A stretch of 40,485 bases of DNA, taken from Bacteroidales bacterium. GTDB lineage: Bacteria > Bacteroidota > Bacteroidia > Bacteroidales > UBA932. Made by a program: the position numbers and the translations under genes. The DNA lies in assembly GCA_017465225.1 (NCBI GenBank), contig JAFTWQ010000021.1:1-40485 (forward strand), given 5' to 3'. The notes under the pieces were generated by a model, which saw only the letters and a list, made by a program, of their open reading frames with translations, ran no database searches and was not told the DNA's origin. Positions 13,600-35,867 of this stretch are shown here, piece after piece (position 1 is the stretch's first letter; each line of letters starts with the position of its first letter).

Positions 13600-13803
13600 A
13601 TGATGGGAAACAAAGCTTTGAAAATATTCTATGCCGCCTTCATGACGCTTATTCTGGCGGCTATGGTGGTATTCATGGTCATCCATATACGTGCGGGACT
13701 TGACGGTCAGACAGCGAAACTTCTTCTCGGAGGATACATTCTGCTCATCATCTGGGCTTCATACCGCATTTTCACCCTGATAAGAGACATAACAAGGAAG
13801 TAA
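13600..13803 (+). CDS. Small two-span membrane protein
   Basis: A 67-residue protein with two transmembrane segments, about 8-29 (IFYAAFMTLILAAMVVFMVI) and 41-59 (LLLGGYILLIIWASYRIF), and a basic tail. The family is not recognised. Its stop overlaps the ATG of the ECF sigma factor by one base (TAATG), so it is translated together with it. That position suggests a role in the sigma/anti-sigma circuit or simple carriage on the transcript. Confidence 0.65.
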   Translation: MMGNKALKIFYAAFMTLILAAMVVFMVIHIRAGLDGQTAKLLLGGYILLIIWASYRIFTLIRDITRK

Positions 13804-14327
13804 TGGCTGCGATCTCCCCAAATAGGCAGACCGAAATCGAAGACCTGTTCCGATTCAACTACAGGCCTCTGTGCATGTATGCCCTTCATTATCTGCAGGA
13901 TACGGATCTTGTGGAGGATGTCGTGCAGGAATGCTTCACCACGCTCTGGGAAAAACTGGAGCAGGGGGCTTCCGTCGCGAACAGACGTGCATACCTGTAC
14001 ATGACCGTAAGGAACAGATGTCTCGACACCCTCCGGAGGAAAGGCATTCCGACCGAGTCTCTCAAGCCTTATGATACATACGGAGTCATAGATGACGACG
14101 ATGCCGAGGAGCGTTCGCATATCGAGGCTAAGCTCTGGACGGCCATCGATTCGCTTCCGGAGAAATGCCGCGAGGTCTTCCTCCTGAGCAAGCGCGACGG
14201 ACTTAAATATGAAGAGATCGCCAAGGAGCTGGGACTGTCCGTCAACACGGTGAGGAACCAGATAAGCAAGGCTCTCAACGTGCTCAAGAACGGGGCTATA
14301 AAGATTTATATGTTCATTTTCGGATAA
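13803..14327 (+). CDS. ECF RNA polymerase sigma factor (FecI-like)
   Basis: A 174-residue sigma-70 family protein of the ECF class. Region 2 is visible at about 12-75 (LFRFNYRPLCMYALHYLQDTDLVEDVVQECF) and region 4 at about 118-170 (LPEKCREVFLLSKRDGLKYEEIAKELGLSVNTVRNQISKAL), which recognises -10 and -35 promoter elements respectively. No region 3 is present, as expected. A FecR gene starts 74 bases later. FecR holds such a sigma factor at the membrane until a TonB-dependent receptor with an STN domain signals ligand binding. Three such receptors follow on the same strand. No second copy of this promoter type could be identified in the window. Confidence 0.92.
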   Translation: MAAISPNRQTEIEDLFRFNYRPLCMYALHYLQDTDLVEDVVQECFTTLWEKLEQGASVANRRAYLYMTVRNRCLDTLRRKGIPTESLKPYDTYGVIDDDDAEERSHIEAKLWTAIDSLPEKCREVFLLSKRDGLKYEEIAKELGLSVNTVRNQISKALNVLKNGAIKIYMFIFG

Positions 14328-14401
14328 TTTACAAAAAAGGATAGTACTATTCGGCAGGTTGTACGTCTTTATGGCAGAAACCTGAATCTTGATCAATGAT
14401 T

Positions 14402-15214
14402 ATGTCACACAATGAAGACAGACATCTGGACTTTGTGCTGAAGCATTACAAAGCAGGAGCATTCGATACGCAGAAGGCTATCGGACGCTTCAAGGATGCC
14501 AACGGTATCAGACCTCTTCCACGCAGACGCTGGATATTCATGATATCCGGCATGTCTGCTGCGGCCATGCTTCTTGTCGGAGTCTTCCTGTTCATGCACC
14601 GCGATGCCCGCGGATGGACGGAGATTACGGCGGATGCCGCACAGGTGGAGCATGTCCTTCCAGACGGCTCATGCGTGACCTTGTCATCCGGATCGTCCCT
14701 CCGCTACCGCATGAAGGAGACCAGGGAGATAAGGATGGAAGGGAAGGTCTATTTCGATGTGGCCCGTGATGAGAGCAGACCGTTTGAAGTCGACGCGGAC
14801 GGAGCTTTCGTGAGGGTGCTCGGAACGGAGTTCATGGTAGATGCTTCCGATAGTCCGGACGGAGCCGAAGCCAAGGTCTATGTCGCTGAAGGAAAGGTGC
14901 TTTTCGCAAAGGATTCCGATGCGGAAGGCGTGATCCTTACCGAGGGCATGGGAGCAGTGCTTGGCGATGGCGCCGAGGTGCCGGTGGTCGAGGAGAAAGC
15001 GGACGTCAATTCTATCGCATGGCAGCGAGGCTCCTTCATCTTCGATCAGACTCCTCTCAAGGATGTACTGGACTGTCTGTCAAAGTATTATCATGTATCT
15101 TTCGTGGCGACAGACCTCTCCAAGGAGCTCAGCGGAGAGTTCTATACCGACGATCTTGACCTGATAATCGAGCTGATCGAATCAGCGCTTGATGTGACCA
15201 TAATCAAGAGATAG
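14402..15214 (+). CDS. FecR-family anti-sigma factor
   Basis: A 270-residue transmembrane regulator. The N-terminal ~43 residues are cytoplasmic and basic near the membrane (RPLPRRRW); the membrane segment is about 44-65. The periplasmic FecR domain (about 80-180) includes VEHVLPDGSCVTLSSGSSLRYR, EIRMEGKVYFDVARDESRPF and FVRVLGTEFMVDAS. The C-terminal DUF4974-like domain (about 205-270) begins SFIFDQTPLKDVLDCLSKYY and ends DVTIIKR; it contacts receptor STN domains in related systems. ATG at 14402 is chosen; ATG 14396 would add two residues. The first receptor gene begins 19 bases later. Confidence 0.93.
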   Translation: MSHNEDRHLDFVLKHYKAGAFDTQKAIGRFKDANGIRPLPRRRWIFMISGMSAAAMLLVGVFLFMHRDARGWTEITADAAQVEHVLPDGSCVTLSSGSSLRYRMKETREIRMEGKVYFDVARDESRPFEVDADGAFVRVLGTEFMVDASDSPDGAEAKVYVAEGKVLFAKDSDAEGVILTEGMGAVLGDGAEVPVVEEKADVNSIAWQRGSFIFDQTPLKDVLDCLSKYYHVSFVATDLSKELSGEFYTDDLDLIIELIESALDVTIIKR

Positions 15215-15455
15215 ATTCCCCTACGAACCGACAATGAAACACGTACTATCATTTTTCACAGCCATCATCATGATGGTCCTTCTCACCGTATCCGTCTGTA
15301 CGGATGCCAGGTCGTCGAGGGATGACCGAGGGAAGATGACGCTCAAAAGCCAGATGGAGGTGATCCATCAGACCTTCGGAGTCAATTTCATATATGACTC
15401 TTCGATCGACCTTGACATCCCCTACAAAGGCCCGTCAATGAAATCCCTTACCGAC

Positions 15456-15518
15456 CGTCACTCCGACTCTTCCGGTCGCCATACCGACTCTTCCGACCGT
15501 CATCCCGACTCTTCCGGT
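15456..15518 (+). repeat. 21-bp tandem repeat in frame, three copies
   Basis: Three direct units at 15456-15476, 15477-15497 and 15498-15518, each close to CGTCATCCCGACTCTTCCGG plus one base. They encode RHSDSSG, RHTDSSD and RHPDSSG within the STN domain of receptor 1. The equivalent site has one unit in receptor 3 (23909-23929) and none in receptor 2. A multiple of three keeps the frame whatever the copy number. Confidence 0.85.
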
Positions 15519-15522
15519 CGTC

Positions 15523-15543
15523 ATCCCCGACCTGATCGGGGAT
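15523..15543. repeat. REP-like palindrome inside the STN coding sequence of receptor 1
   Basis: The arms ATCCCCGA and TCGGGGAT flank a CCTGA loop, making an eight-base-pair perfect stem. It is translated as HPRPDRGS. Copies lie at the same place in receptor 2 (19627-19641, shorter arms) and receptor 3 (23934-23954), and an intergenic relative lies at 34749-34767. Confidence 0.8.
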
Positions 15544-17764
15544 CCCTCGAAGAGGCCCTCAAGGTCCTCTTCGCCGGCACCGGCATCGAATTCCAGATCA
15601 TGAAAAGATACATAGTCCTGACCAAGGCGGATTCGAAGAAAAAGCCGAAGGACTATACCATCTTCATCGAGGAGCAGAAGGATACTTTGGATGAATCACG
15701 TATCACGGCATACATCGACCGCAGACGCAACACCACCCAGACGGGCCTGCAGAAAATAGACGGAAGCAGGTTCAGACGTGGTTATGCGGTGCTCGGTTCT
15801 CCGGACCTGATCAAGGAACTCCAGAGCCTTCCCGGCGTATCCGGAGGCACAGAACTCCTCTCCGGAATGTATGTCCACGGAGGAGACGGAACAGACAACC
15901 TTTTTCTTCTTGACGGCGTCCCGCTCTATCAGGTCAGCCATCTGGCCGGACTTGTATCGTCATTCAACACGGAAATGATCGACAACCTTGATTTCTACAA
16001 GAGCGGCTTCCCCTCCCGCTTTGGCGGTAAGACTTCGTCGGTAGTGGACATCACCACAAGACCGGGCGATTTCCATGAGTACAGCGGATCCTTCAATATA
16101 GGCCTTCTCAACGGAGGTCTTCAGTTCGAGGGCCCGATCATTCCTGGAAAGACCTCGTTCAATGTGGGCGTAAGGCGCACATGGTTTGATGTCCTCACAG
16201 TTCCGTACAATCTTATCGCCAATCTTTCATTGCCATATGGAGATTCAGGCAAGGTGCAGCTTGCAATGACTGACCTCAATGCCTCGATAACCCATCTTTT
16301 CGACAAAGACAGCAGACTGTCGATGAATTTCTATGCCGGAGCAGACCAGATAAGATACAAGTATACGGATCTGCGTGTGAGGTATTGGGAAGGTGTCCGC
16401 CATACGGGAGACTCCGGACACGACATCAATGCCCGCTGGGGAAACATCCTTGCAAGCCTTGACTGGAAGAAGAATTTCTCGGACGACCTTCATCTCAACA
16501 CCCTTATTTATTATACACGTTCCAATACCGATGTCGGTCTGTGGGACAAACAGTGGCTTGTAGGAAACAGCAACACGCTGAACATCACTGACAGAGTGCT
16601 GCAGGAGAGGAATTATTCGAGACTCCACGACATCAGTGCAAAGGCAGATCTTGACTGGATCCCGTCCGAATATCATCACATCCGTGCAGGAGCTGCCTAT
16701 ATTCAGCATCTCTTCAGGCCGAGGAAAGTGTTTGCCGTTAATACGAAAGAGAATGGTGAGGGGATATATTCCGATAATGATTCATATTCAATAGATTACA
16801 ATGCATCGGAAGTGGCGGTATACGCAGAAGACGAGATTGCGTTTGCGTCATGGTTCAAGGCCAACATAGGCCTCCGTTATGATATGTTCAGCCAGGGCGG
16901 GACCATACATCATTCCTTCGAGCCACGTGCCGCGCTCCGCTTCCAGCTTTGCCCTATGGCCTCACTGAAGATGTCATATACGGAAATGAGCCAGCCCGTC
17001 CATCTGCTGCACTCGCATTATCTTGACATACCGATGACAAGCTGGCTTCCGTCCACGGACCGCATACCTCCGATGAGGTCAAGGCAGGCAGCCGGAGGCG
17101 TTTATATGAACCTGCCGCATGGGATCGTGCTGAATGTCGAAGGATACTGGAAGACGATGGACAACATGTATGAATACTCCGGGATCGAGATTCTTTATCC
17201 TGACATCGAAAAATGGGAGCATGATCTGATGCGTGGCAAGGGCCGTTCCTACGGTGCGGAAGTGGAGCTCGGATGGAAGACAAAGGATACGGAATTTCGG
17301 CATATTATACATTGTCATGGACCGAGCGTCTGATCAAAGGCATATGGCATGACTGGTATCCTGCACGCAATGACAACAGGCACAAGTTCACTCTCCATGC
17401 AACGCACCGCTTCAGCAGGCGCTTCGACATGTATCTCGCCTGGAACTATCATACCGGAGACAGATCTACAGTGCCGACCCAGATCATTGGAGGAGAAGTT
17501 TACTACACAAGCCCATACAATTATAAAATGCCTGACTATCACCGTCTTGACCTCGGATTCAATTTCCGCAAGACCACCAGGCGAGGCAACGAAAGCATAT
17601 GGAACCTGACGCTCTACAATGCCTATTGCAGGATGAATCCGATGTTCACGATGCTCGATCATTACAAAAAGAGTTCATCATCTGACGAGTACAAGACGAC
17701 ATTCAAGACATTGGCGGCGATTCCGGTTATCCCATCATTCAATTACACTTTGAGATTTTAAACC

Positions 17765-19427: not shown

Positions 19428-21842
19428 ATGAAACGGACTTTACAATATGTTATCATTCTTATTGCTGCTGTTGTGCAGCCGCATCTTGCGTATACGCAGG
19501 AGGCGTTAGGCCAGGGCGGTGATCCGACCCTGAAAGCTCAATTGGAGATTCTCCATGAAACATTCGGAGTAAATTTCGTCTACGACTCTTCCATAGACCT
19601 TGACATCCCCTGCAAAGGTCTGCCCACCCGACCTGATCGGGGATCCCTCGAAGAGTCCCTCCAGACCCTCTTTTCCGGCACCGGCATCGAATACGAGATC
19701 ATGAAGAAATACATAGTCCTCACCAGGGCCGGCTCGAAGAAAAAGCCCAAGGACTACACTATCTTCATCGAAGAGCAGCATGATACCATCAATGAATCCG
19801 TGGTGACCGCCCTGGTGGATCCGAAAAGGAATTCCACCCAGACCGGCCTGAAAAGGATTGACAGCAGAGACCTGAATTCCGGTTTCGCCCTGTTCAGCAC
19901 TCCGGACGTGATAAAGACCCTTCAGCTGCAGCCGGGAGTGTCTTCGGGTACGGAGCTCCTTTCCGGATTCTATGTACATGGAGGCGATGGCAGCGACAAT
20001 CTTTTCCTGCTTGACGGGGTTCCGGTCTATCAGGTGAGCCATCTGCTCGGGTTGTTCTCGTCTTTCAACACGGACGTCATAAGCAGCCTGGACTTCTATA
20101 AATCCGGCTTTCCGGCTCGTTTCGGATCCAAGCTTTCGTCTGTCGTGGATGTGACCACGAAGGAAGGTGACTTCAATGAATATCACGGCACATTTGCTCT
20201 CGGTCTCATTGACGGCCGTCTGCAGCTGGAAGGCCCGATTTGGAAGGACAAGACCTCTTTCAATGTGGGATTGAGAAGGACATGGACGGAAACGCTTACG
20301 CTTCCGCTCTTTGCTATCGTGAACAAGTACAACAAGCCGGACAAGCTCAATGCAAGGTATGCCTTCTCTGACTTCAATGCAAAGCTCACCCATAAGTTCA
20401 GCGACACCAACCGCCTTTCGGCCAATTTCTACAGCGGACGTGATGTGTTCAGATATTTAGGTAAGGAGATCGGCAGCTATTATGATGCCGAGGGCATTCT
20501 CCGTGAAGAGCAGAACATTACGGATATCGGACTTTCATGGGGAAATGTGCTTGGATCGCTGAATTGGGACTATAAGCTCAACGACAGGATATCGATGAAG
20601 AACATCGCATATTACAGCGGCTCGATCTCGAACCTGTACTTCTATGCGAAGGAAGTCGATATGTTTGACAACAGCGTGAAGAACGGGGCATACAATATGT
20701 CAGATGTCCATAATATCGGCCTTAAGTCGGATTTTCATCATTTGCTCGGGGAGAAGCATAAGTTGAGGTACGGAGCTACGGCCCAGTATCATATCTATTG
20801 CCCTAATGCTACGGCAAAGACCGATATCATCTATGACAATGTTGCGCAGACGCAGACCGCATATGCCGATTCGCTCCGATATGGTACCGTCGAGGCATCG
20901 GTGTATGCCGAGGATGAGATCACGGTTTCGGATGCGTTCTCGATCAATGCCGGACTTCGCTACAGCATATATTCGTCCGGCAGAAAGGTCTGGCATTCGG
21001 CCGAGCCGCGTCTCGCCATGAAATATTCGTTCAACGACAGGATCACGGCAAAGGCCTCATATACAGAGATGAGCCAGCCATCCCACCTTGTTTCTTCATT
21101 GTATCTCGATCTGCCGACTAATTCATGGCTTCCGTCTACGGCGAAGGTGCGTCCGTCGCGTTCGCGTGAGGCTGCAGCCGGAATATATACCGGTCTTGCC
21201 CACAATCTCCACCTGAATGTAGAAGGATGGTACAAGCATATGTACAATCTTCTGGAATATGCGGGGTCGTACAATATCTTCCCTCCGCTTACGGATTGGG
21301 AAAGCAATTACAGGTCCGGACAGGGACGCTCATGGGGAGCGGAGATAGATTTCGGATATGACAACGGAAGGACAGAGGCCAATGTTTACTATACTCTTTC
21401 ATGGAACCAGAGGAAGTTCGACGACTTCTACAATGGCTGGTACCGTGACAGGAACGACAACCGTCACAAGCTCACGGTAATGGCAAGACACAAGTTCTCG
21501 AAGCGTTTCGAGATATATGGAGGATGGAACTGGCACAGCGGCAACAGGATGACCGTGGCGACTCATATCACGGGTTCCGGAGCCTATGTCTATACGGAGC
21601 CGAACAATGTAAAACTCCCTGATTATCACAGGCTTGACGTGGGAATGAATTTCGTGAAGAATACCAGACGAGGAAACACCCGTATCTGGAACCTGAGCCT
21701 GTACAATGCTTATTGCAGGCCGAATGCTATAGCCGCGACAACGCAGGAATTGAAGCTTCATGACAAGCTGGTCAGCCATTACGGTTCTTCCATAGGCATC
21801 ATTCCTATTGTTCCTACCTTCAGTTACACATTGAAATTCTGA
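19428..21842 (+). CDS. STN-domain TonB-dependent receptor 2
   Basis: An intact 804-residue receptor. Signal peptide 1-23; STN domain about 35-105 (ILHETFGVNFVYDSS, GSLEESLQTLFSGTGIEYE, KKYIVLTRAGSKKKPKDY); plug about 136-250 (LQPGVSSGTELLSGFYVHGG, NLFLLDGVPVYQVSHLLGL, FYKSGFPARFGSKLSSVVDV); then a barrel ending in PTFSYTLKF. The CarboxypepD_reg-like domain usual in DUF4249-linked receptors is absent; the STN takes its place. By the STN, ligand binding should be reported to FecR in addition to TonB-driven uptake. The ligand is unknown. The palindrome at 19627-19641 encodes the loop before GSLEES, with no 21-bp unit. Confidence 0.9.
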   Translation: MKRTLQYVIILIAAVVQPHLAYTQEALGQGGDPTLKAQLEILHETFGVNFVYDSSIDLDIPCKGLPTRPDRGSLEESLQTLFSGTGIEYEIMKKYIVLTRAGSKKKPKDYTIFIEEQHDTINESVVTALVDPKRNSTQTGLKRIDSRDLNSGFALFSTPDVIKTLQLQPGVSSGTELLSGFYVHGGDGSDNLFLLDGVPVYQVSHLLGLFSSFNTDVISSLDFYKSGFPARFGSKLSSVVDVTTKEGDFNEYHGTFALGLIDGRLQLEGPIWKDKTSFNVGLRRTWTETLTLPLFAIVNKYNKPDKLNARYAFSDFNAKLTHKFSDTNRLSANFYSGRDVFRYLGKEIGSYYDAEGILREEQNITDIGLSWGNVLGSLNWDYKLNDRISMKNIAYYSGSISNLYFYAKEVDMFDNSVKNGAYNMSDVHNIGLKSDFHHLLGEKHKLRYGATAQYHIYCPNATAKTDIIYDNVAQTQTAYADSLRYGTVEASVYAEDEITVSDAFSINAGLRYSIYSSGRKVWHSAEPRLAMKYSFNDRITAKASYTEMSQPSHLVSSLYLDLPTNSWLPSTAKVRPSRSREAAAGIYTGLAHNLHLNVEGWYKHMYNLLEYAGSYNIFPPLTDWESNYRSGQGRSWGAEIDFGYDNGRTEANVYYTLSWNQRKFDDFYNGWYRDRNDNRHKLTVMARHKFSKRFEIYGGWNWHSGNRMTVATHITGSGAYVYTEPNNVKLPDYHRLDVGMNFVKNTRRGNTRIWNLSLYNAYCRPNAIAATTQELKLHDKLVSHYGSSIGIIPIVPTFSYTLKF
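19627..19641. repeat. REP-like palindrome in the STN of receptor 2
   Basis: CCCGA and TCGGG around CCTGA, the trimmed form of the element at 15523-15543. It is followed by the same GATCCCTCGAAGAG sequence as in the other two receptors. Confidence 0.75.
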
Positions 21843-22894: not shown

Positions 22895-23715
22895 TCATGA
22901 GAAGGATGTTATTTGCCGTATGTACGGCTTTGATGATATTGAGCGGATGTGAATACCATCCGTATTATGACGGACAGGAGTTCTGCGTGTATAATGCAGG
23001 ATGCGGCCTGCTGGAGACAGACGGCGGTCATGCGATTGTGCCGACGGTCGGGAGGAATCCGTATGTGCTGGAATTCTATGGTGGCAAAGGTGAGAATCAT
23101 TCCGTGGAAATCGAGGATCCGGAAATCCTTGGATATTCTTTAAGGGAAAAGGATGTGAATCTTCCGATAGGGGATTGCGAGTTGATACCGGCTGGTGTCA
23201 CGCTTCTGCCGAAGAAGGTCGGGGACACGTCGATCACCGTGAAGGACGAGGACACAGGCAAGTCCATACAGATATATATCCATGTCCGTGAGGCATACAA
23301 GGCGATTCAGGTTTGTGAGGAGGGAAAATACTTTGACAAGGAGACCATATTCGCGTTCAGGTTTCCTTCGGAAGACAATGCCGTAAGGATCTGCCGCGGA
23401 AGTGTAGCGGACAATGATGTCCGCCATGTGGCTTTCGGAACCTACAGGTTCATTATGTCGGAGGACCTGCTTTATTTCGAAATAGCCTTTCCGGCCGATG
23501 AGGACGGTAGGCCTGCGGCTGAAGGAAATGAAGTAAGGAGGATTTATCAGGTGCAGCTTGAGGAGGGTGGTTCGTTCAGCGCCAGAGTCATGTTCAATTC
23601 TCTGAACATCAATGACTACATGAAAGATTATGATGCTGTCTTCAGGTTTGTGGATGAGACCGATGTATTCTATGCCCGTAGCGCACAATTCATAACATGG
23701 AATGAAGATGAATAG
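22891..23715 (+). CDS. Hypothetical lipoprotein of module 2
   Basis: A 274-residue lipoprotein starting MIMRRMLFAVCTALMILSGC (Cys20). ATG at 22891 overlaps the preceding stop; ATG 22897 is an alternative, and a GTG at 22858 is unlikely because the signal peptide would be buried. The mature part has Ig-like beta features (GRNPYVLEFYGGKGENHSVEI, KKVGDTSITVKDEDTGKSIQ) resembling bacterial Ig-like surface domains. The family is not recognised. It overlaps the start of receptor 3 by 14 bases. Confidence 0.65.
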   Translation: MIMRRMLFAVCTALMILSGCEYHPYYDGQEFCVYNAGCGLLETDGGHAIVPTVGRNPYVLEFYGGKGENHSVEIEDPEILGYSLREKDVNLPIGDCELIPAGVTLLPKKVGDTSITVKDEDTGKSIQIYIHVREAYKAIQVCEEGKYFDKETIFAFRFPSEDNAVRICRGSVADNDVRHVAFGTYRFIMSEDLLYFEIAFPADEDGRPAAEGNEVRRIYQVQLEEGGSFSARVMFNSLNINDYMKDYDAVFRFVDETDVFYARSAQFITWNEDE

Positions 23716-26122
23716 GATATCTGCATATTTCACAGCTGTACTGCTTCTTGCATTGTCTCTCGCTTCCGGCGTGGCTGATGCAAGGAATGCGGCTTCCGGT
23801 CGCGGGACTCTCAGATCGCAGATGGAAGTCATCCATGAGACTTTCGGCGTCAACTTCGTATATGACTCCTCTCTGGACCTTGACATCCCCTGCAAAGGCC
23901 CATCCGATCGTCTCCCCGACTCTTCCGGCCGTCATCCCCGACCTGATCGGGGATCCCTCGAAGAGTCCCTCCAGACCCTCTTCGCCGGCACCGGCATCGA
24001 ATACGAGATCATGAAGAAATACATAGTCCTCACCAAGGCCGGCTCGAAGAAAAAGCCCAAGGACTATACCATCTTCATCGAAGAACAGCATGATACATTG
24101 AGCGAATCACGCATCACGGCTGTCCAGGACAGGCGCAGGAATGCGGCCCAGACAGGTCTGGAGCACATAGATGCATCCGTGTTCAGGAGGGGATTCGCCG
24201 CTTTGAGCTCTCCGGATGTGATAAAGACCCTGCAGTATCTGCCGGGTGTCTCGGGAGGAACGGAGATGATGAACGGACTGTATGTGCATGGAGGAACAGG
24301 AAATGACAATCTTTACCTTTATGACGGGGTTCCGGTCTATTCGGTGAGCCATCTCGCAGGTCTCTATTCTTCGTTCAATGTAGATGTGGTGGACAATGTT
24401 AACTTCTTCAAGAGCGGCTTCCCGGCTTCGTACGGAGGCAGACTGTCTTCCGTGGTCGAGGTCAATACCCGTGACGGAAGCATGACCGATTATAAGGGAA
24501 GCTTTACGATTGGCCTTATCAACGGTTCCGTGCAGTATGAGGGTCCTATAGTGAAAGACCGCACATCCTTCAATGTGGCGATGCGCCGCAGCTGGCTGGA
24601 TGTGCTGAGTACGCCGGCTTTAGCTGTGGTCAATTCGTATAACAGCAATGATGAATTTGCTGAACGCATGTCTGCGAGGTATGCAATGACCGACTTCAAT
24701 GCGAAGGTGACCCATAAGATCGGCGAAGACAACATGCTGCGTTTCGGGATCATTACAGGAAGGGATGCTCTTGAATATGGAGCTGAAGCCCGTGACAATA
24801 CTTCAGGAACGGATTACGGGTTCCGATGGGGAAATGTCGTGGGCTATGCCGACTGGCAGAATGTGATAGGGGAGGATATCCATTATGACATGAAGGCTTA
24901 TTATACCCAGCATCGTTCAGATATGGATTGGGACAGGTTCATCAACGATGAAGGCCGGCAGGATGAGCAGAACGAGGGATGGACGACAGGCATCTATGAT
25001 CTGGGTCTGAAGTCTGATTTCGACCATGTCCTGAATGATATGCACAGATTGAGATATGGAGCGGAGCAGATTTTCCATATATATCGTCCCAAGCAGTCAT
25101 GGACCACATCTTCCCAGATGGGGGAGATCTCGTCCGGAAGCCTGTCAGGGATGTATTTCGGCAGCGAGACCGCACTGTATGCGGAGGATGAGATGACCTT
25201 GTCCGACAGGTTTACGGCCAGCATAGGTCTCCGTTCTGTGCTTTTCGGAGTGAAAGGCAAGGCATACGGAAGGCTGGAGCCGAGGGTGGCGATGAGTTAT
25301 CGTCATTCCGAAATCGCTGTCTTCAAGGCTTCATACACTGAAATGAACCAGTTCTCCCACCGTCTTCAGACCACTTTTCTCGACCTTCCTTCGTCGGTAT
25401 GGCTTCCTTCTACGGCAAAGATTCCTCCTATGAATTCAAGGCAGGTGGCGGCCGGTGCATATCTGACCCTGCCGTTCAATCTGGGGGTCGATGTGGAGGC
25501 ATTCTACAAGACGATGAACCATATAAGGGAATACAAGGGATACCGGCTTTTCCCTCCTCTTGAGAACTGGGAAAGGACTTTTGTGGACGGAAAGGGACGC
25601 TCATATGGTCTTGAGACATCGGTGGTCTACAATACCGTGAAGACCCATGCTGCGCTGAACTATACTTTGTCATGGAGCGAACGTTTCTTCGAAGACCTCT
25701 TCCCTGAATGGTTCCCGGACAGGCTTGACAACCGCCACAGGATGAATGTTTCCGTAAGCCACAGATTTTCGCGCCGTTTCGAGATGTATGCGGGCTGGTG
25801 CTGGCATAGCGGAGACCGTTTTACGGTCGAGAGCCAGTATATTCCGGAATATGGTGAATATGACTATAGGGAATATGTCTTCGTGAGCCCGAACAATGTG
25901 AAGATGCCTGACTATCACAGGCTTGACGTGGGATTCAATTTCCATAAGACCACAAAGAGAGGAAATGAGGCTGTCTGGAACCTGAGCGTCTACAACCTCT
26001 ACTGCAGGATGAATCCGATAGTGGTCTATACATATACGGAGGACGGAAAGCCGGTAAATGCCGCTGCCGGTATGCTTCCTGTCATCCCGACATTCAGTTA
26101 CACCTTGAAGTTCAAGAGATGA
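23702..26122 (+). CDS. STN-domain TonB-dependent receptor 3
   Basis: An intact 806-residue receptor. ATG at 23702 is used (alternative 23708); the signal peptide ends near GVADA. STN about 38-118 (VIHETFGVNFVYDSS, then an in-frame repeat RLPDSSGRHPRPDRG, GSLEESLQTLFAGTGIEYE). The plug starts near 150 (YLPGVSGGTEMMNGLYVHGG, LYDGVPVYSVSHLAGLYSS), and the barrel ends in PTFSYTLKFKR. No CarboxypepD_reg-like domain is present. The STN and following linker are almost the same DNA as in receptor 2, while the barrels differ widely, so the ligands probably differ. Its stop overlaps the start of the third DUF4249 gene by four bases. Confidence 0.9.
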   Translation: MKMNRISAYFTAVLLLALSLASGVADARNAASGRGTLRSQMEVIHETFGVNFVYDSSLDLDIPCKGPSDRLPDSSGRHPRPDRGSLEESLQTLFAGTGIEYEIMKKYIVLTKAGSKKKPKDYTIFIEEQHDTLSESRITAVQDRRRNAAQTGLEHIDASVFRRGFAALSSPDVIKTLQYLPGVSGGTEMMNGLYVHGGTGNDNLYLYDGVPVYSVSHLAGLYSSFNVDVVDNVNFFKSGFPASYGGRLSSVVEVNTRDGSMTDYKGSFTIGLINGSVQYEGPIVKDRTSFNVAMRRSWLDVLSTPALAVVNSYNSNDEFAERMSARYAMTDFNAKVTHKIGEDNMLRFGIITGRDALEYGAEARDNTSGTDYGFRWGNVVGYADWQNVIGEDIHYDMKAYYTQHRSDMDWDRFINDEGRQDEQNEGWTTGIYDLGLKSDFDHVLNDMHRLRYGAEQIFHIYRPKQSWTTSSQMGEISSGSLSGMYFGSETALYAEDEMTLSDRFTASIGLRSVLFGVKGKAYGRLEPRVAMSYRHSEIAVFKASYTEMNQFSHRLQTTFLDLPSSVWLPSTAKIPPMNSRQVAAGAYLTLPFNLGVDVEAFYKTMNHIREYKGYRLFPPLENWERTFVDGKGRSYGLETSVVYNTVKTHAALNYTLSWSERFFEDLFPEWFPDRLDNRHRMNVSVSHRFSRRFEMYAGWCWHSGDRFTVESQYIPEYGEYDYREYVFVSPNNVKMPDYHRLDVGFNFHKTTKRGNEAVWNLSVYNLYCRMNPIVVYTYTEDGKPVNAAAGMLPVIPTFSYTLKFKR
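23909..23954. repeat. One 21-bp unit plus REP-like palindrome in receptor 3
   Basis: A single tandem-repeat unit at 23909-23929 (RLPDSSG) precedes the palindrome ATCCCCGA / CCTGA / TCGGGGAT at 23934-23954. The order of elements is the same as in receptor 1, with two fewer units. Confidence 0.8.
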
Positions 26123-34748: not shown

Positions 34749-34767
34749 TCCCCGATCAGACCGGGGA
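34749..34767. repeat. Intergenic REP-like palindrome
   Basis: TCCCCGATCAGACCGGGGA between manC and yqeY. Reversed, it matches the palindrome found in the three receptor STN domains at 17 of 19 positions, showing that the same element family occurs both between and within genes. Confidence 0.6.
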
Positions 34768-34772
34768 GACTG

Positions 34773-35867
34773 TTAACGATACTTTTCAAATTCCGGCATT
34801 GCTATGCCCGAGATGAAATCCTTGAATTTCTTGTCGTCCTTCGGACAGATGACCAGCACGTCGTCGGTATCGATGACCATGTAGTCCTCGAGCCCCTTGA
34901 TTGCAATGAGCTTCTTCTTTTCTGGAGAAACGACGAGTACATCCCTGGATCCCTCGATGAGCGTCTTTTCAGCGCTGATGGCATTGCCGTCCGCATCTTT
35001 CGGGATGTAGTTGTAGAGCGATTCCCATGTTCCGATGTCCTGCCATCCGAATTTCGCAGGGTATATCCATGCCCTGTCGGTGCGTTCCATGACTCCGTAT
35101 CCGATGGATATGTTCATGCATCCGGTGTAGGCTCTCTGGATGAATTCGTTCTCGACCTTCGTTCCGATCGCCGACTCCCATCCGGTGAACTGCCCTGTGA
35201 CTTCCGGGAGATGCTTCTCCATTTCCTGCCTGATGGTCTGTGCCTTCCAGAGGAAGATTCCGGCATTCCAGAGGAATTCTCCGGTTCCGATGAATACCTT
35301 TGCGAGCTCCCTGTCCGGCTTCTCCGTGAATGTCTTGATCTGGAGCGGCTCGTTGCTCATGTAGGCATCCTTGCCTCCGCAGGCCTGGACATATCCGTAG
35401 TTTGTGTCTGGCCTTGTCGGCACGATTCCGAGGGTCATGAGCACGTCCTTTTCGGCTACATGTCTGAATGCGTCGTTGATCGTCTCGGCGAAGAGTCCGT
35501 CATCGGTGATGATGTGATCGGCCGGAGAGACTACGACCATTGCGTCCGGATCCCTCTTGAGAAGGGTGTAGGTCGCATATGCGAGACATGGGGCCGTGTT
35601 CCTGCTGTAAGGCTCGAGAAGGAGATTCCTTTCCTCAAGCTCGGGAAGCTGTTCCCTCACCAGACCCTCATACCTTGCTGCGGTCACTACAATGATGTTT
35701 TCCTGGGGAACGATTGTCTTGAACCTGTCGTATGTCTGGCGGATGAATGTCTTGCCCGTATCGGCTACATCAAGAAACTGCTTTGGCTTGGCTGCCTTGC
35801 TGATGGGCCAGAAACGGGTTCCGAGTCCTCCTGCCAGAATCACACAATAGCGGTTGGTCATGTTCAT
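34773..35867 (-). CDS. manC: Mannose-1-phosphate guanylyltransferase
   Basis: A 364-residue GDP-mannose pyrophosphorylase that makes GDP-mannose from GTP and mannose-1-phosphate for surface glycans. The signature loop is LAGGLGTRFWPISKAAKPKQF; the rest of the fold includes ENIIVVTAARYEGLV, LLEPYSRNTAPCLAYA, VVSPADHIITDDGLF, FTEKPDRELAKVFI, LWNAGIFLW and the late DIGTWESLYNYI. It is a single-domain enzyme with no phosphomannose isomerase fusion. ATG 35867 is used (alternative 35861). It follows yraN by 18 bases. Confidence 0.93.
   Translation of the reverse strand: MNMTNRYCVILAGGLGTRFWPISKAAKPKQFLDVADTGKTFIRQTYDRFKTIVPQENIIVVTAARYEGLVREQLPELEERNLLLEPYSRNTAPCLAYATYTLLKRDPDAMVVVSPADHIITDDGLFAETINDAFRHVAEKDVLMTLGIVPTRPDTNYGYVQACGGKDAYMSNEPLQIKTFTEKPDRELAKVFIGTGEFLWNAGIFLWKAQTIRQEMEKHLPEVTGQFTGWESAIGTKVENEFIQRAYTGCMNISIGYGVMERTDRAWIYPAKFGWQDIGTWESLYNYIPKDADGNAISAEKTLIEGSRDVLVVSPEKKKLIAIKGLEDYMVIDTDDVLVICPKDDKKFKDFISGIAMPEFEKYR

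Follow-up and report, generated by a model that had tools for sequence, protein, structure and literature searches.

A putative intragenic CGTC-REP and its tandem half-copies in the STN domains of neighboring TonB-dependent receptors of a Bacteroidales bacterium

Introduction

A 21-bp tandem array coding for part of the STN signaling domain of a Bacteroidales TonB-dependent receptor is, with a probability of about 0.8, the product of an intragenic CGTC-REP, a tagged palindrome placed in frame in the length-variable β3-α2 loop of tandem paralogues. According to this reading, the 21-bp units are partial tandem duplications of the tag, the 5' arm of the stem and the immediate 5' flank, a type met with repeatedly at the tag side of REPs in this genus, and selection within genes keeps multiples of three. 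The palindromes belong to a dispersed family; their presence and the number of units vary between related genes; the partial copies are biased to the tag side, their ends cluster at the hairpin apex, and their spacings in gene-like frames are multiples of three. The feature is apparently an intragenic CGTC-REP with an unusual mode of growth, one that seems general.

How short palindromes spread and grow, and whether they help to build protein segments, has been an open question since intragenic REPs and Rickettsia palindromic elements (RPEs) were recognized. Here, one group of related genomes displays versions of a single loop with no REP, with a REP only and with an expanded REP, and growth leaves a signature that is measurable in direction and length. 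Annotators should be aware that such loops are repeat-derived and need not reflect receptor function.

Results and discussion

The repeat array and its gene context

The window, i.e., the whole stretch of 40,485 nt analyzed here, is contig C24 of a 2.35-Mb assembly (90 contigs, 78% complete). Three TonB-dependent receptors, each with a DUF4249 gene behind it, lie downstream of a sigma factor and a FecR gene (Table 1). The STN domains lie at the receptor N termini with FecR and the sigma factor nearby, the arrangement of an STN signaling domain, and this FecR is their likely partner. The Pfam STN match of receptor 1 scored 22.5 bits, below the cut-off of 28.4, and no Pfam STN match was reported for receptors 2 and 3, yet both align with the STN of receptor 1. 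This domain matched PupA weakly by profile (E 0.056), and a fold search with it returned weak matches to secretin, FpvA and PupA (E 0.14-0.86) and nothing at E 0.001 or better; weak as they are, the resemblances to PupA, FpvA and secretin N-domains by fold and profile are consistent with an STN. Receptor 1 is frameshifted near 17.3 kb, where a C-terminal piece 50% identical to receptor 2 lies in a different frame; either the gene is broken or frameshifted, or there is an indel or mis-assembly near 17273-17761.

Table 1. Location of the repeat elements and neighboring genes in the window
Feature	Position	Strand	Details
ECF-type sigma factor (Sigma70_r2/r4)	13803..14327	+	Pfam
FecR-type anti-sigma factor	14396..15214	+	Pfam FecR and FecR_C
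TonB-dependent receptor 1 with STN domain	15234..17333	+	C-terminal barrel goes on in other frame, 17273-17761
Three 21-bp units, receptor 1 STN	15456-15476, 15477-15497, 15498-15518	+	In frame; encode RHSDSSG RHTDSSD RHPDSSG
Complete CGTC-REP, receptor 1	15519..15544	+	CGTC + ATCCCCGA/CCTGA/TCGGGGAT + C; encodes RHPRPDRG
TonB-dependent receptor 2	19428..21842	+	Pfam, translation
Truncated REP, STN 2	19625..19643	+	Units absent
TonB-dependent receptor 3	23702..26122	+	Pfam, translation
Single 21-bp unit, STN 3	23909..23929	+	Somewhat diverged; alignment
Complete CGTC-REP, STN 3	23930..23955	+	Exact pattern match
Degenerate palindrome copy	34749..34767		TCCCCGATCAGACCGGGGA; 5 nt from end of minus-strand ORF 34773-35867

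A first-pass annotation of this DNA had described an in-frame 21-bp array in STN 1, and it is present at 15456-15518, with 3, 0 and 1 units in STN 1, 2 and 3, respectively. Tandem Repeats Finder (TRF) assigned to 15456-15527 a period of 21, 3.4 copies and 82% matches; its score of 102 was the top among the 11 tandem-repeat rows of the window. The palindrome, said to follow the units in all three STN domains, is exact in STN 1 and STN 3 (15523-15543 and 23934-23954), but the element of STN 2, which reads CACCCGA/CCTGA/TCGGGGA, has lost the CGTCAT tag and the outer 5' arm. Likewise, the palindrome type was correctly seen to recur at 34749, with a perfect core, but this copy is degenerate and lacks the CGTC tag. 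The core pattern TCCCCGR-N5-YCGGGGA, scanned with at most 2 mismatches over the window and 100 shuffles, occurred at 4 window places, a number reached by none of the shuffles, versus 0.55 expected.

The element extends beyond the palindrome and comprises a CGTC tag, an 8-bp stem, a 5-nt loop and a tail. This tagged pattern has exact window matches at 15519 and 23930 only, the other three of its five hits being two opposite-strand readings of these sites and one likely chance match. Unit and palindrome, initially taken as two things, are both real, but they are related: aligned to the REP, the unit consists of tag, 5' arm and loop start, followed by local flank, and misses the 3' arm. To see whether the unit is dispersed independently, a 29-nt pattern (unit plus the start of the next REP, 3 mismatches) was searched for, and it matched at two window loci only.

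A dispersed CGTC-REP family, and its relation to RAYT genes

Using a degenerate tagged-REP pattern with the reversed pattern as control, we identified 35 exact sites in the genome of the window and 5 more with one mismatch, and none with the control; the palindrome thus occurs elsewhere in the genome, as had been anticipated. The two stem positions left free by the pattern are complementary in 32 of the 35 exact sites, with several different pairs (hand count). At least one REP was present in 102 of 200 sampled genus genomes (own genome included; 2 control hits in all), and in a family sample of 149 genomes there were 18 with a site, 16 of them outside the genus of the window (1 control hit).

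These elements resemble the CGTC-REPs of Di Nocera et al. (2013, PMC3733652), defined in the sections of that paper considered here by an 8-9 bp stem beginning with a paired AT and a 4-5 nt loop. All 35 exact sites carry an unpaired CGTC tag at one end; the stem has 8 bp and starts with AT, and the loop has 5 nt. Furthermore, the elements are dispersed and multi-copy, about 11 of the 40 own sites are no more than 7 nt away from the 3' end of a predicted ORF, and inverted (head-to-head) pairs are found on own contigs C17, C32, C47, C53 and C81. Tails are mostly CTN (CCC in the window) and not mostly CCA; this trait was not taken as strict because the same sections say 'most of which fit' CCA. 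The proposal that a selfish or structural repeat had turned into a protein loop is supported: the palindrome is a dispersed REP and lies in frame in the STN loop.

No mobilizing enzyme was found for CGTC-REPs, RAYT being the sole transposase family scanned. One alternative is that a RAYT transposase of the genus inserts the REPs and builds the arrays by repeated single-strand transposition. A REP-associated transposase had been suggested, and a RAYT-like gene is indeed present in the own genome (NF047646, 36.8 bits, cut-off 80), as are RAYT-like genes in 157 of the 200 genus genomes, none of which passes the curated cut-off. RAYT presence is positively associated with that of REPs (94/102 genomes with REP versus 63/98 without), an association that may stem from completeness or relatedness; against a role of RAYT, four genomes with at least 10 REPs have no RAYT match, though they may be incomplete. 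The neighborhoods were scanned in the own locus and 40 of those listed in genomes with at least 10 REPs, and a real CGTC-REP lay within about 2 kb of 2 of these 41 loci, near the background of about 3 that a rough REP-density estimate gives; within about 1.5 kb of 8 further loci (L117-L124) there was none. A third match (L131) was an untagged chance palindrome. RAYTs flanked by the same REP, as in REPIN/RAYT systems, were thus not the pattern found here, the positional link was rejected, and we consider RAYT-driven growth unlikely.

STN loop states among paralogues and relatives

Receptor matches were obtained in at least 165 of the 200 genus genomes, among the matches listed, and a selection from them yielded 46 distinct STN homologues (left of 56 rows once 6 that lack the STN and 4 duplicates were removed). 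Loop length is already variable among the REP-free homologues. Reading of the translations revealed REP-derived loops in 8 of the 46: three in the window, four in genome G024 and one in G066; a fourth paralogue of the own genome (G000:C81, L091) has a loop without REP. The variation of unit number between paralogues, previously noted for the window, where it runs 3, truncated REP, 1, extends to G024 (1, 0, 0 and a more divergent array), and SIG154 has 0 units. At a single 7.4-kb locus of a relative (L236), one of two STN paralogues is REP-free (L236:2483) and the other (L236:6062) carries an intact REP without unit, so that IKSMID-RHPRPDRG-SLEQCL stands there versus MKSLTD-3 units-RHPRPDRG-SLEEAL in the window. 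The two G024 paralogues that were compared are, besides substitutions, one 18-nt unit (REP 5' part plus flank) apart. G024 also holds a head-to-head REP pair in the STN loop, whose stem is different in sequence but perfect (ATTCCCGA/TCGGGAAT); the same loop has therefore held at least two REP arrangements. The 11 named loci encoding receptor relatives belong to Bacteroidales MAGs; the sources, where one is stated, are water buffalo, goat, water deer and roe deer (caecum or rectum).

The perfect stems of STN 1 and STN 3, and that of G024, which differs as if pairing had been kept, would agree with a REP that acts as an RNA or DNA hairpin, e.g., by slowing translation or altering mRNA decay in the operon, with the peptide as a by-product. 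This we judge to be quite unlikely: the outer stem is lost in STN 2 and also in L237, the G024 stem could equally come from another REP subfamily, and elsewhere a REP is found antisense to the gene that contains it.

Position of the loop and contact with FecR

A model of STN 1 built from 15 sequences (mean pLDDT 70.1, pTM 0.55) has the units begin in the last part of helix 43-52, while most of their length falls in a coil of low confidence (residues 53-75) ahead of the SLEEAL helix; mean pLDDT is 51 for residues 51-60 and 49 for residues 61-70, and residues 53-75 have no secondary structure. In this model the unit-bearing loop looks disordered, and from sequence order and the model it would correspond to the β3-α2 loop of the STN domain. 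Mapping of the loop on an STN structure, as had been suggested, gave a coil and a probable counterpart, but one outside a known contact: in the portion of PMC7186176 considered here, the β3-α2 loop is off the PupB:PupR interface.

A further alternative is adaptive tuning, i.e., that the unit number of the STN loop changes the engagement of FecR by the receptor and so acts as a variable signaling dial, an effect on receptor-FecR contact that the first-pass annotation had also put forward. Unit number does vary between paralogues and stays in frame, FecR and the sigma factor are directly upstream of the receptors, and earlier studies cited in that portion of PMC7186176 did implicate the β3-α2 loop. 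However, the PupB:PupR interface is elsewhere, the units lie mainly in a low-confidence coil, similar arrays occur in a methyltransferase, in traM and in non-coding DNA, and the receptor with the most units is the frameshifted one, so that relaxed constraint could explain its longer array. A functional dial is possible but unlikely given the disordered-looking loop, the PupB:PupR interface and the frameshift of receptor 1, and adaptive tuning as the origin of the arrays seems to us very unlikely.

Direction, end points and frame of the duplications

In the own genome, copies, partial or whole, were counted up to 100 nt from each exact REP: 14 of 35 have one on the tag side and 1 of 35 on the tail side, and two of these 14 cases belong to a single head-to-head pair (L047), one at each end. 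In three other species (G138, G122 and G054) the numbers were 15 of 53 versus 3 of 53, the sample covering, among the matches listed, the sites of G138 and G122 and some of those of G054. Fisher tests that treat the two sides as independent gave p 0.0002 (own genome) and p 0.003 (G138/G122/G054). Pooled, tag-side copies accompany 29 of 88 REPs and tail-side copies 4 of 88; a looser count over 40 own sites gave 14 on the tag side, 1 on the tail side and 3 in a control stretch.

Among the 29 REPs with tag-side copies, the nearest copy is whole in 3 and partial in 26. Eighteen of these 26 end at REP positions 12-17 (hand count; binomial p 0.0004), versus about 35% for ends distributed evenly across positions 8-24, the loop occupying positions 13-17; the other 8 end away from the hairpin apex. 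Unit spacings are mostly 18-26 nt, and the 21 bp of the STN array is thus simply the in-frame member of this class; the 44-nt spacing of L174 and L175 was divided by eye as 22 + 22. Every spacing is a multiple of three in the 15 of 30 arrays that lie, by judgement, in gene-like frames, and in 3 of the other 15, the remaining 12 having at least one spacing not divisible by three. We take this contrast as support rather than proof, because it is partly built into the classification, a gene-like frame having to be open on both sides, which itself favors multiples of three, and because paralogues among the 15 gene-like arrays leave about 10 independent ones; codon scores are weak (0.06-0.09) for three of the 15. 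The statistical test of this contrast counted 4 of the other 15 arrays instead of 3, which errs on the conservative side.

That a low-complexity coding repeat underwent ordinary slippage and has a REP beside it by chance seems very unlikely to us: 18-26 bp are ordinary tandem-repeat unit sizes, but the units include the REP start itself and the tag-side excess runs against it.

Regarding the preferred origin from the REP itself, a REP would have entered an STN loop of already variable length, and its hairpin, formed in single-stranded DNA, probably provoked either replication misalignment or cleavage near the apex followed by repair, by which tag, arm and flank would be duplicated on the tag side. 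Frame-breaking products would be lost inside genes, and extra residues would be close to neutral in a disordered loop. More tentatively, CGTC-REPs might grow stereotypically in this way (tag, 5' arm and flank, apex-ended, on the tag side, filtered by reading frame) and serve across the genus as an engine by which conserved proteins gain and extend disordered loops at sites used repeatedly (STN domains, the methyltransferase, TraM).

Comparison with known elements

There is precedent for CGTC-REPs inside genes, for in-frame palindromes, for intragenic clusters of REPs and for tandem REP clusters that include flanking DNA, as the sections of PMC3733652 and PMC3116915 considered here attest. The former reports CGTC-REPs in Bacteroidetes among five phyla, some of them inside genes, intragenic clusters coding for 43-82 residues, and REPs at about the same recB site in two Xanthomonas species; GTAG-family clusters are reiterated there in tandem with flanking DNA, and CGTC clusters are called rare. 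Our elements share with those CGTC-REPs the tag, the AT-starting 8-bp stem, the 5-nt loop, the frequent location at gene ends, the head-to-head pairs and the lack of a dedicated transposase; they differ in the tail, mostly CTN instead of CCA, and in the reiteration of only the 5' half of the REP on the tag side, of which those sections make no mention. RPEs, of which RPE-4 and RPE-6 are of CGTC type (PMC3733652, same sections), are likewise in-frame palindromes inside genes of known function, but they belong to another phylum, and in the present case partial duplications next to the REP supply much of the extra protein; we do not class our elements as RPEs. The REPIN clusters of Pseudomonas fluorescens SBW25 are also tandem arrays that include flanking DNA; in the part of PMC3116915 considered, however, the repeated item is the entire REPIN and three of the clusters adjoin RAYT genes, whereas here repetition is confined to the 5' half and the RAYTs are elsewhere. 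We recognized no description of tag-side half-REP arrays, of their reuse as protein loops, or of intragenic REPs in Bacteroidales in the open-licence PMC literature, and the words 'intragenic', 'within genes' and 'tandem' are absent from the part of RepRanger (PMC12306157) considered here; the growth mode of this intragenic REP looks little described.

REPs inside other genes

Eleven of the 40 own sites lie, by judgement, in frame within ORFs of a recognized family. Their hosts are two STN receptors, subunit a of ATP synthase (with one mismatch, close to the N terminus), a TsaB-like protein, MetH and a TPR protein with two sites each, a small methyltransferase and two TraM, the second TraM copy (L101) being counted through its near-identical translation. 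In-frame palindromes inside conserved genes, as in RPEs, are thus represented by metH, the TsaB-like gene, the methyltransferase and traM. The inverted REP pair of MetH (L110:432-4100) is situated in the linker before the first B12-binding domain, and alignment with the solved structure 9ssp opens 17 gap positions where the REP lies.

The STN array finds its closest parallel in the methyltransferase (L105), where 21-nt units come after a REP in opposite orientation, the whole encoding IPGQAGDDEPVTGDDKPVTGDDEPVTGGD. Comparison with the PDB gave two weak matches, so the evidence for this insertion is taken from genus homologues. The loop could be parsed in 28 of 30 homologous loci: besides the own gene, G066 has a REP in it, G183 a remnant, G186 (L215) a 7-residue tandem array that looks like a different repeat type, and the pattern scan gave no REP in the remaining parsed loops. 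The loops of L215 (G186), L218 (G169), L208 (G056) and L210 (G129) presumably hold other repeat types, and the methyltransferase loop is possibly a recurrent insertion site.

A REP is also carried by a 756-aa ORF without Pfam match (L108), and two sites lie at the end of a 178-aa ORF that we assume to be folK. The one-mismatch match at C71:18945, in an EamA gene, was counted as chance and encodes a seemingly ordinary membrane segment. The TraM copies L038 and L101, from conjugative elements on C33 and C76, are near-identical; what sets them apart is about 12 codons in the region of the REP. Finally, the TsaB-like protein (L109:1703-2440, own C10) displays 8 gap positions around the REP site relative to the TsaB/YeaZ chain 3r6m, and beside the CGTC-REP it contains a second repeat-like insert, VIPSEAEGS, which we take to be another palindromic repeat family.
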